Virus record (IMG/VR): IMGVR_UViG_3300042992_000765
Coordinates: 1-22,439 of that record
Strand: one strand, 5' to 3'
DNA length: 22,439 bases
Origin: a virus
Shown in pieces: positions 3,026 to 6,433 of the stretch. Within the stretch, counting starts at the first letter, position 1. Each line of letters opens with the position of its first letter. Both the position numbers and the translations under genes were made by a program. The notes below the pieces were generated by a model, which ran no database searches, was not told the DNA's origin, and saw nothing but the letters and a program-made list of their open reading frames with translations.

Positions 3026-3406
3026 TCACCACTTACCCAGCGGACATTTCTCGGAGGCCATCCTCAGCTTCGCCCAAGTAGCGCAGCCACACTTGCGACA
3101 GCGGCCGGTGCCATTAACAGCTTGAGCATCCCACATATCACAACCACGGCAGGTGGCCTCACGGCTCGCTAGGGTCTTTGGATCAGTGGTAGCAAAGCCA
3201 CTGCGGGCGAAGTTGGTCACAGCCTTCGATGCTGTCTTGATCATCTGCGACATTCTCGGGGGGGTCTGTGGCTCGATCCGAACATGTAGATTCTCACCGC
3301 GTGAGACGCACAGTTTGCAGACTCCAGCACTTGGCCTGCCGCCATAAAGGCCAAGGCCACAGGCATTGACTTGAGCGCTGATCGCGGTGGCGTGAGGGCA
3401 AGTCAT
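3026..3406 (-). CDS. Cysteine-rich zinc-ribbon-like phage protein
   Basis: This 126-aa protein has two cysteine clusters. The N-terminal cluster is C3, C16, C30, C33 (CKLC). The C-terminal cluster is C86, C89 (CRGC), C103, C106, C108 (CRKCGC) and C121, ending in CPLGKW. The C-terminal pattern CxxC-x13-CxxCGC...K.R...CPxGKW is typical of a small zinc-ribbon family often found in phage genomes near tail genes (DUF6171-like). Metal binding is therefore likely; its target is unknown. The start overlaps the stop of the large cysteine-repeat gene as ATGA. Its base composition matches the neighbours. It could be a virion-assembly factor or a regulator, and the sequence does not decide between them. 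Confidence 0.75.
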   Translation of the reverse strand: MTCPHATAISAQVNACGLGLYGGRPSAGVCKLCVSRGENLHVRIEPQTPPRMSQMIKTASKAVTNFARSGFATTDPKTLASREATCRGCDMWDAQAVNGTGRCRKCGCATWAKLRMASEKCPLGKW

Positions 3407-5250
3407 GAGATAGTGATGCTGCCGCTTGCAGGTGTGTTAACTGGCGGGTTCGAGTCTAACGGGTTATCACAGGTTTTTGTTCCAGTGAGGCTTATTGCAA
3501 TGGGCAAGGTGGTGTTGGCGCTTAGCGGAACCGAACCTTCTAGAGATGTGACACACTGCGTCCCAATTTCCTGCGCATTAACCAGCAACATGCAGACATT
3601 GTTTGTTTTTACTACGCTTATTCCGACGACTGAAGTCCATGTAGAGGAATTACTAGCGGAACATCCAGATCCTGACAAAACGCCTGACCTATTTAATCCA
3701 TCAATGGTCAACGCATAACCAAACGAAGTCGCTCCAAAAGTGTCTTGTAGTGACGGGCAACTATCGCAAAAAACGCACTCCTTTGGAAACTTGTCGGTCT
3801 GGACGGCGCTTGATTGAATCTTCTTGAGTGGAAGGTAGGCGTTAGCGCTGATATTAACATCTGCTCCGGGAGTTTGCTGAATTACCTCCGAGTAGCTGTC
3901 AGCGTCACCAGGGCTCATTCTGGTCCGTATGGTTTTTCGATTGATGCGTATCGTCACCCAGTAGATGCCGTCAGCGCATTTCTCCGCCTCTCCAAGACTT
4001 ACTGTGAATCCATAGGTGGCAGAATACGGAGGAGCTGTTCCGTCTTGAAAACATCCCGGCGATCTTGTGACCCCTTGAATGGATATTTGTGCTGGTTGGC
4101 ATGGTGGTTTTCTTGGCGGCCTTGGTGGGTCTCCGCCTCCGCCTCCGCCGCCTCCGCCGCCGCCTCCGCCGCCTCCGTCAGGATCGTCTGGCGGGTCGTT
4201 CGGGTCAACAGGTGGTTCGTCTGGGTCAACAGGTGGTTCGTCCGGGTCAACAGGTGGTTCGTCCGGGTCAACAGGCGGTTCGTCTGGGTCAACAGGTGGC
4301 TCGTCTGGGTCAACAGGTTGGCATTCAAAGATCGCGCAGCCATCCGCACTCACCCCGACTTGGTTAAGTGTCGAGCCTTCAGGGCAAACCATCGGATCAC
4401 CGCAAGGGGTGTCTTGTTTTTTGCAGGTGTAAGTAGGGCAACCTGCCGCATCGGGTTCACCAAAAACGGCAACATGCCCATCTGGGCATTTAATCACATC
4501 GGTGCATTCGAGAGGTTGGCAGATGTAAATCGGGCACCCTCTCGCATCCGATCCAGCGATCACCAACTTTGATGTGGTTGGGCATTCTGGAGGATCGCCA
4601 CAAGGTTGGACTTCTATTTTTTTGCATTCCCATTGAGGGCATCCGACTTCATCGTATCCAGTCTGCCTCACTCGATACCCATCAGGGCATTTTGCAGGAT
4701 CACCACAAAAGGTTGGTTGGCAGATATAAGAGCGGCAGTTGCATTGATCCCTGCCGGTTTCGACCAGTTTGAAATTCTCGCCGCATAGGGGCGGTGGCAA
4801 ACATGGGCCGCATGGTGGGGGTGGGTCTGCGCCTCCACCTCCACCTCCGCCTCCGCCTGGAGGCTTGATTGGCGGCACATCTGGGCATCCGCTGAAGTTG
4901 AATAAAGAAGAGAATGGGTCGTTGTAAGGCTCGTCATCAACATAGCCGGGGTACATCAGTTTGCCCTGTTGGGTGCCGCTGGAGACTTGGCAGCTTGTCG
5001 AGTAGACCGTCCAATCATTGGCGTGAAACTCAGAAACTCCGAAATCTGTGTTTCTCACCACCCGACTCACACTGCCGATGGTCGCCGTACTCGTTTGATT
5101 GATGTAGGTGAGGTGAAATAGCCCATTTTGATAGGTCACCCACCGCAGTGAGGATGATGCGTTGAACGGGCTTGTGACCGGGTTTGCCCAGCCGGCGCGC
5201 CTTACTGCCCAGCCGAGCTTGGCGTACTCGGCGGCAAGTGGCCAGATCAT
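3403..5250 (-). CDS. Multidomain tail-region protein: Tad2-like domain, five cysteine repeats, VDPDEPP and polyglycine linkers
   Basis: A 615-aa protein. Residues 1-90 (MIWPLAAEYAKLGWAVRRAGW to NDWTVYSTSC) are a close paralogue of the next upstream gene product and match the layout of the Tad2-like/DUF2829 family: aliphatic start, G.aVRR.GW, C-terminal A.DW.v. A glycine run (about 132-140) leads to five tandem repeats of about 33 residues (147-311), each CGDP..CP.G...G.D..GCP.Y.C, resembling antistasin-type cysteine knots. Then come six VDPDEPP-type heptads (313-355), a run of about 15 glycines and a C-terminal beta-rich domain with ten more cysteines. ATG at 5250 aligns with the paralogue; an in-frame start at 5307 would overlap the upstream gene by 43 bp. 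Probably an extended, disulphide-rich virion fibre; any anti-defence function is speculative. Confidence 0.7.
   Translation of the reverse strand: MIWPLAAEYAKLGWAVRRAGWANPVTSPFNASSSLRWVTYQNGLFHLTYINQTSTATIGSVSRVVRNTDFGVSEFHANDWTVYSTSCQVSSGTQQGKLMYPGYVDDEPYNDPFSSLFNFSGCPDVPPIKPPGGGGGGGGGADPPPPCGPCLPPPLCGENFKLVETGRDQCNCRSYICQPTFCGDPAKCPDGYRVRQTGYDEVGCPQWECKKIEVQPCGDPPECPTTSKLVIAGSDARGCPIYICQPLECTDVIKCPDGHVAVFGEPDAAGCPTYTCKKQDTPCGDPMVCPEGSTLNQVGVSADGCAIFECQPVDPDEPPVDPDEPPVDPDEPPVDPDEPPVDPDEPPVDPNDPPDDPDGGGGGGGGGGGGGGGDPPRPPRKPPCQPAQISIQGVTRSPGCFQDGTAPPYSATYGFTVSLGEAEKCADGIYWVTIRINRKTIRTRMSPGDADSYSEVIQQTPGADVNISANAYLPLKKIQSSAVQTDKFPKECVFCDSCPSLQDTFGATSFGYALTIDGLNRSGVLSGSGCSASNSSTWTSVVGISVVKTNNVCMLLVNAQEIGTQCVTSLEGSVPLSANTTLPIAISLTGTKTCDNPLDSNPPVNTPASGSITIS
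4131..4177. repeat. CCN-rich low-complexity tract encoding polyglycine
   Basis: The plus strand shows a run of cctccg and ccg units, read on the minus strand as GGN codons for about 15 consecutive glycines inside the cysteine-repeat gene. Mixed GGC and GGA codons suggest growth by slippage with later drift. A shorter tract of the same kind at about 4829-4862 encodes the first glycine linker of the same protein. Confidence 0.85.
4202..4318. repeat. Six-copy 21-bp tandem repeat encoding VDPDEPP
   Basis: The core gggtcaacagg begins at 4202, 4223, 4244, 4265, 4286 and 4307, an exact 21-bp period. On the minus strand each unit encodes the heptad VDPDEPP, an acidic proline-rich rod or spacer. Units differ at only one or two bases, mostly synonymous (tct/tcc, ggt/ggc), which indicates recent expansion. 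Being a multiple of three, copy-number change would alter the linker length without breaking the frame. Confidence 0.95.
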
Positions 5251-5264
5251 GCCATGTGCAGTGC

Positions 5265-5687
5265 TCAAGGCTTTTTGATGGATGGGTAGAGCGGGACTAT
5301 GGGACACGCCCCGTATTTCGAATTGGGGTTGAGCGGATCAACGACGATCGTCACATCCACCGGGCGCGGGTAGCGCTTTTTCCCTTGTTGGGTTGGATCA
5401 CTCTGCTGCGCGCTATTGGAACAGCTCGGCGAGAACACCGTCCAGTCTTCGGCGTAGAAATCCTCGACTCCAAAATCCGAGTTGCGAATCACGCGGGAGA
5501 TTTTGTTTTCACTGCCGGCCTGCCTGTACAACAACCAGAACAAGGAGTTTTGGTAGATCACCCAGCGCAGCGCCCTGCCGGTATCACCCAGCAAGTCGGG
5601 GTTATCCCATCCAATCCGCCTCACCGCCCAGCCACGCTTTGCGTATTCCGAGGCCAGTGGCCAGATCATGCCGGATCCGTAGGTCAT
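5265..5687 (-). CDS. Stand-alone Tad2-like (DUF2829-like) domain protein
   Basis: This 140-aa protein begins MTYGSGMIWPLASEYAKRG and contains GWAVRRIGW, a central LRWVIYQNSLF strand and FYAEDWTVF, the signature layout of the Tad2-like/DUF2829 family. Founding Tad2 members neutralise Thoeris defence by binding its cyclic nucleotide signal; many other family members have no known role. Residues 7-30 match the N-terminus of the downstream gene product at 20 of 24 positions, and the DNA is also similar, so the two arose by tandem duplication. After residue 98 a short tail (PTQQGKKRYPRPVDV) is also shared with the paralogue. The start overlaps the previous stop as ATGA. The family call rests on motif resemblance without a profile search. 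Confidence 0.65.
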   Translation of the reverse strand: MTYGSGMIWPLASEYAKRGWAVRRIGWDNPDLLGDTGRALRWVIYQNSLFWLLYRQAGSENKISRVIRNSDFGVEDFYAEDWTVFSPSCSNSAQQSDPTQQGKKRYPRPVDVTIVVDPLNPNSKYGACPIVPLYPSIKKP

Positions 5688-6433
5688 GCGTTTGGTACTA
5701 GATCGCGGTCGATAGCAATACGGAAGGTCTTGGATGAGCGGATCACCTCCTCAGCCAGCGCCCCCTCTTCCAAGTAGGTCACGCGCCACTCAAATTCAGC
5801 AATCGCGTCGAAAGTTGATTTGTAGTCTGACTGGTAATTTCCGAGGGCGTTCAGCAGTTCATCGGTGTCGAGATCCACCAGAATGCGGTATCGTTGCTTG
5901 TCACTGGTGCCTATGGCCTGCACGGCTCCATTCGACTCCACAAGGATCGTCTCGCCATCGAACTCACGGATGTTCATGACAATCGAGGAAACAGCCATGC
6001 TTTGAAGCTCGGTGCCTTTGAAGAAACCGAGGTCCAAGAACGCTTTATCGCCATGCTTTAGGTACATCACCGCTTGGCTTCCGCCTTGCCCGGACGACGG
6101 TGTAATGCCTGGCACTGATGCCGAACCAGAGAGCAGGTCGATGTTCACCTCGATGCCGAGGCCGTCATTGTAGTTGGAATCCTCGATGCCCATCGCAATA
6201 TCCAATGGGGTGGATGAGCCGTCACCATTAGTGGCTGTGACTTTGATCAGGTAAACCCCGGCCGATGTCGCTGTGCCGCTGATGAGTCCGGTGGAACCAA
6301 TTTCCATTCCGCTCGGCAGGCCGGTAGCCGCCCAAGATGTCGGCGTATTGGTGGCCGCCATCTGGTACTCAAAGTATTGACCCTTGCGGTAGCCGAGGAC
6401 GGATGTGGTGCTGGATATTACTGGTGCTGGCAT
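5684..6433 (-). CDS. Tail-region protein with N-terminal He-PIG-like putative Ig domain
   Basis: This 249-aa protein starts MPAPVISSTTSVLGYRKG. Residues 2-80 follow the He-PIG pattern: G..FEYQMAATNTPTSWAATGLPSGMEI, then TGLISGTATSAGVYLIKVTATN. This immunoglobulin-like fold is common in surface proteins of Verrucomicrobiota and related groups. Residues from about 90 onward form an acidic, probably beta-rich domain (VMYLKHGDKAFLDLGFF, RYRILVDLDTDELLNALG) that I do not recognise. The gene starts 5 nt after the stop of the 798-aa protein and is coupled by ATGA to the Tad2-like gene. No Shine-Dalgarno sequence or TTGAC motif is seen; the leader reads AAAATCTAAATACC. A tail appendage or baseplate component is likely from position. 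Confidence 0.7.
   Translation of the reverse strand: MPAPVISSTTSVLGYRKGQYFEYQMAATNTPTSWAATGLPSGMEIGSTGLISGTATSAGVYLIKVTATNGDGSSTPLDIAMGIEDSNYNDGLGIEVNIDLLSGSASVPGITPSSGQGGSQAVMYLKHGDKAFLDLGFFKGTELQSMAVSSIVMNIREFDGETILVESNGAVQAIGTSDKQRYRILVDLDTDELLNALGNYQSDYKSTFDAIAEFEWRVTYLEEGALAEEVIRSSKTFRIAIDRDLVPNA

Follow-up and report, generated by a model that had tools for sequence, protein, structure and literature searches.

The window analysed here comprises the 22,439 nucleotides of IMG/VR virus record IMGVR_UViG_3300042992_000765, and carries on its minus strand a run of four genes in the order HePIG, D1, D2 fibre and g126 (Table 1). Each gene shares 4 bases with the next, and the overlaps read ATGA between HePIG and D1, TTGA between D1 and D2, and ATGA between D2 and g126. 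Further tail genes lie downstream, among them one that matches phrog_5939 (2.6e-37) and another, a collagen-type tail fibre, that matches phrog_5073. An earlier sequence-only reading of this DNA had placed two adjacent genes, D1 and D2, at this site, and both were found there on the minus strand. It described the second as a fibre-like protein of 615 aa; the gene stands as located, but its product probably has 621 aa, as the TTG at 5268 is preferred over the ATG at 5250 because it fits better the MS(I/V)GHGMIW start of the related proteins.

Table 1. Genes and features of the D1/D2 locus (positions in the window)
Feature	Position	Strand	Basis
HePIG, He_PIG (Ig-like) tail gene	5684..6433	-	Pfam He_PIG 3.3e-9; phrog_8763 tail 1.7e-7
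D1, stand-alone gene, 140 aa	5265..5687	-	ORF; D2 paralogue; kept in relatives
Tad2-fold core of D1 (modelled)	5421..5675	-	AF2 pLDDT 85.3, pTM 0.74; VIA-align Z 8.9-9.9
D2 fibre-like gene, 621 aa (TTG) or 615 aa (ATG 5250)	3403..5268	-	ORF, junction sequence
Tad2-fold core of D2 (N-terminal fibre domain)	4990..5250	-	52% identity to D1; member of profile A5
Cys-rich shaft repeats, C.DPP.C....KL...G.D..GCP.Y.CQP	4319..4815	-	Read from sequence; boundaries approximate
21-bp tandem repeat, 5.6 copies, in-frame, (VDPDEPP)n	4202..4318	-	Sequence
Poly-glycine linker	4131..4177	-	Sequence
C-terminal fibre part, faster-evolving, beta-rich by eye	3406..4100	-	dN/dS; boundary approximate
g126, CxxC-rich gene, 126 aa	3026..3406	-	phrog_13558; junction; synteny

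Beyond its N-terminal domain, the D2 product has the look of a fibre. The Cys-rich shaft repeats, with a unit of about 35-40 aa, have no match in Pfam. Their number varies among relatives: a rough pattern count found about nine in L008 and none in L035. The many cysteines of the fibre would suit an extracellular position. At about the place of the 21-bp repeat, relatives carry poly-Gly (up to 44 residues) or poly-Pro tracts, so slippage may vary the length of the shaft.

The protein encoded by D1 and the N-terminus of D2 share 52% identity over 129 aa (E 3e-36). The 20 identical residues out of 24 at the start of both proteins, reported earlier, are exact when counted from MIWPLA, and the domain seen as common to the two genes was confirmed by this identity and by the conservation of the tandem pair. 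The likeness extends beyond the Tad2-like core into an extension of about 45 aa (QQGK..YP..VD...CP.VP), which in D1 is C-terminal and has two cysteines conserved within the close group. The pair is kept in relatives, and in pairs with unsaturated dS both domains showed dN/dS values of 0.04-0.17, indicating strong purifying selection; D1 and D2 are thus neither chance similarities nor spurious reading frames.

A relationship of this domain with the anti-defence protein Tad2 was examined with profiles and structure models. The Pfam profile of the Tad2-like family, PF11195 (DUF2829), has a gathering score of 25 bits; D1 reached only 12.3 bits, the fibre gene gave no match, and the best of the relatives obtained 16.0 bits (E 0.018), and none of the 15 records examined passed the cut-off. 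These sub-threshold matches nevertheless keep the register, and in some relatives they extend almost from end to end. When 177,635 PDB sequences were searched with profile A5, a family profile built without any Tad2, seven Tad2/AcrIIA7 chains ranked at the top, each of them weakly (E 0.011-0.11). Alignment by hhalign with a Tad2 set made up of SPO1 gp34.65 and seven Verrucomicrobiota Tad2-like sequences gave a probability of 91.8%, over only 27 N-terminal columns. SPO1 gave a second weak Tad2 match, in a lysine-rich gene adjoining the portal gene (L081), which was read as a chance hit.

Structure prediction with AF2 gave a usable model of D1 when the core was trimmed and a diverse alignment was supplied (pLDDT 85.3, pTM 0.74); prediction of the full 140 aa from a narrow family alignment yielded a pLDDT of 48, and its fold matches were meaningless. 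With VIA-align, the model of the core matched ten solved Tad2/AcrIIA7 entries with Z 8.9-9.9 and 1.6-1.8 A over 63-67 residues, whereas the best unrelated chain had a Z of 4.7. The two top matches in a BFVD search were Tad2-like proteins. A plain Foldseek search against the PDB had no Tad2 among the best matches listed, and VIA-align of the Foldseek candidates put Tad2 first. As modelled, the D1 core was shown to have the Tad2 fold, and common descent of the tail domain and Tad2 is very likely. The Tad2/DUF2829 likeness proposed by the sequence-only reading thus holds for the fold and for the ranking of PDB chains, weak as the E values of the latter are, but not at the level of the Pfam profile.

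The tandem D1/D2 pair was identified in 12 other IMG/VR contigs, and also in metagenome-assembled genomes (MAGs) whose titles name Verrucomicrobia, Akkermansiaceae or Akkermansia. On one further contig (L013/L028), the sequence includes no more than the first part of D1. Phages bearing these genes infect Akkermansia-like bacteria. More distant relatives were found by means of alignments (L026, L027, L029-L032, L054, L057-L059, L061, and L087). A tblastn search of 50,697 phage records yielded no convincing relative, and PADLOC and NCBIfam gave no match. In the loci examined, and as far as each contig reaches, the gene order TMP-like/g253/g213/g359/g798/HePIG/[D1]/D2-fibre, usually followed by g126, is maintained at identities down to 24-35%. 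The TMP-like gene, g213, g253, and g359 were named by position and sequence look, with no match in the family libraries tried. The same tail context was judged by eye to be present in L087, from another Verrucomicrobiota genome. HePIG lies directly upstream of the domain gene in relatives as in the window, and g126 (phrog_13558, CxxC-rich) stays downstream of the fibre in most of them.

In nearly all loci the domain forms the N-terminus of a longer protein, in which a Gly/Pro linker and distal domains follow it. Many relatives have the fibre copy only, directly behind HePIG, and thus the arrangement does not depend on D1. Two copies of the domain each occur in L030, L054, and L059. The two L030 copies cluster together in the tree (91/80), apart from the copies of the window group, so at least two tandem duplications of the domain seem to have occurred. 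In L030, a separate protein of about 300 aa, encoded between HePIG and the fibre (L030:7338-8333), carries D1 at its C-terminal end; the protein appears Ig-like by eye, with no Ig-like match in Pfam. In L054 (4950-5414), the usual fibre is missing after D2, its place being taken by a GACC...GGTYYGDGTVC motif and poly-Pro. A D1/D2 copy of an Akkermansiaceae MAG (L034:6052-7345) has apparent frame disruptions, and the L034 copies were excluded as intact examples because they look frame-shifted. A 696-aa frame around D1 in L003 was rejected as a fusion, being merely a long stop-free frame.

The two ends of the fibre evolve at different rates, the shaft and tip diverging several times faster than the domains. 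Between the window and L002, dN/dS was 0.08 for D2 and about 0.35 for the rest of the fibre, with dN values of 0.041 and 0.277, respectively. A slow domain joined to a fast distal part matches the expectation for a fibre whose anchor stays fixed; slow evolution of D1 and D2 is also unlike that expected of an arms-race protein.

Strict synteny within the tail module, fusion to the fibre, the 4-base overlaps and the contrast between a slow N-terminus and a fast distal part speak for a recruited fold with a structural task in the virion, which was one of two readings offered earlier from the sequence. The Tad2-fold domain was probably recruited as a structural tail or fibre-attachment module. D2 would anchor a fibre or adhesin at its N-terminus, and D1 would be its stand-alone partner, probably an adaptor joining the He_PIG tail protein to the fibre. 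Through homotypic contacts, or contacts between D1 and D2, the oligomer-forming surfaces of the fold may hold the fibre to the tail, while the Cys-rich repeats, the Gly linker, and the C-terminal part point outwards. Presence in the virion, contact between D1 and D2, and the role in attachment are what we infer from this arrangement.

A structural tail domain might still bind a small ligand, such as a sugar or a cell-wall component, and help in receptor recognition rather than in attachment. Ligand pockets of Tad2 sit between protomers (PMC12043709), and a position in the tail would fit contact with the host; such a function is nonetheless unlikely, as the domain changes slowly compared with the rest of the fibre, which is not the behaviour of receptor-binding parts, and sits N-terminally, adjoining the tail gene. 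Less probable still is that D1 and D2 are chaperones or assembly factors and not stable parts of the virion, D2 being cleaved off or only transient. Many fibre assembly genes are small and adjoin the fibre gene, as D1 does, but in nearly all relatives the fibre includes D2 as a covalent part, and D1 can be lacking.

A working sponge of the Tad2 type, whether produced late or carried by the virion, that sequesters Thoeris or CBASS signals would share its fold with D1, which is also small and stand-alone like Tad2, and Tad2-like genes over the Pfam cut-off do occur in 7 of 289 Verrucomicrobiota genomes. The gcADPR pocket of Tad2 is formed by the loops beta1-beta2, beta3-beta4, and beta4-alpha3, strand beta4, and helix alpha3, and cyclic dinucleotide (CDN) binding involves an insertion after beta2 (PMC12043709). 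The WNGK loop, present in six of the eight members of the Tad2 set, and the [PA]SQx[DE] motif, present in seven, were found in none of the 21 tail-family relatives; this comparison concerns motifs, not contact residues, and the motifs were defined here from the Tad2 alignment and do not occur in every Tad2 (ModTad2 has PSVSD). The CDN-binding insertion, too, is missing from every relative examined; alignment A5 lacks it, and in the AF2 model its place is taken by a tight hairpin with a 2-residue turn between strands 38-42 and 45-51. Structure prediction upheld the Tad2 fold suspected from the sequence, with this hairpin instead of the CDN-binding insertion. The domain gene follows the He_PIG gene in a tail operon of strict synteny, not among variable accessory genes, and is usually fused to a fibre, unlike the small, non-structural Tad2; its domains are under strong purifying selection, and the copies of a fibre per virion would presumably be far below the stoichiometric need of a sponge. 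The STALD domain of ThsA was detected in 2 of the 289 sampled Verrucomicrobiota genomes, a sample that covers the ThsA type of Thoeris, and was not found in G013, a genome carrying D1/D2-type loci; this scarcity argues only weakly against an anti-Thoeris role. An anti-defence domain carried in the virion, the other reading proposed from the sequence, found no positive evidence, and a sponge of either kind is highly improbable. It is just as improbable that the virion-borne domains keep a nucleotide pocket of altered specificity, a structural tail protein thereby doubling as an anti-defence sponge.

In the literature searched, Tad2 has so far been described solely as an anti-defence protein, and no earlier description of a fibre bearing a Tad2-like domain was found among the open-access publications searched. 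As a conserved building block of tail operons, the Tad2 fold would perform two quite different tasks, and a shared ancestor in phages is suggested for the sponge and the tail module. A Tad2-like annotation by itself would then not imply anti-Thoeris activity. The fibres of Akkermansiaceae phages would also gain a named anchor domain.

The tail domain resembles the Tad2/DUF2829 proteins (PF11195; SPO1 gp34.65, SptTad2, ModTad2) in the order of its elements (alpha1, beta1, beta2-beta3-beta4, alpha3, beta5), in a conserved Ala in alpha1, and in the R-x-(G)-W and A-x-D-W motifs. It differs from them by the absence of WNGK, [PA]SQ, and the insertion after beta2, by a Cys-containing extension, by its tail-operon location, usual fibre fusion and sub-cut-off Pfam score, and, in the Akkermansia group, by a longer beta1-beta2 loop. 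Tad2 is a homotetramer of V-shaped dimers; the model of the tail domain covers the monomer. AcrIIA7/HgmTad2 (8kbi, 9kzr) has the same fold (Z 9.6 for 8kbi) but is a small anti-defence protein, from which the tail domain differs by the same motifs. Tandem DUF2829 genes are known from phage SpaA1, gp60 and gp61 (PMC3398947), and are likewise two adjacent small genes of this superfamily, although they are listed with hypothetical genes at the genome's far end and are not fused to a fibre. With modular phage tail fibres the D2 protein shares a conserved N-terminal domain, a low-complexity linker, a divergent C-terminal part, and tail-gene neighbours; what sets it apart is that the putative anchor has a Tad2 fold, with a stand-alone paralogue often encoded alongside.
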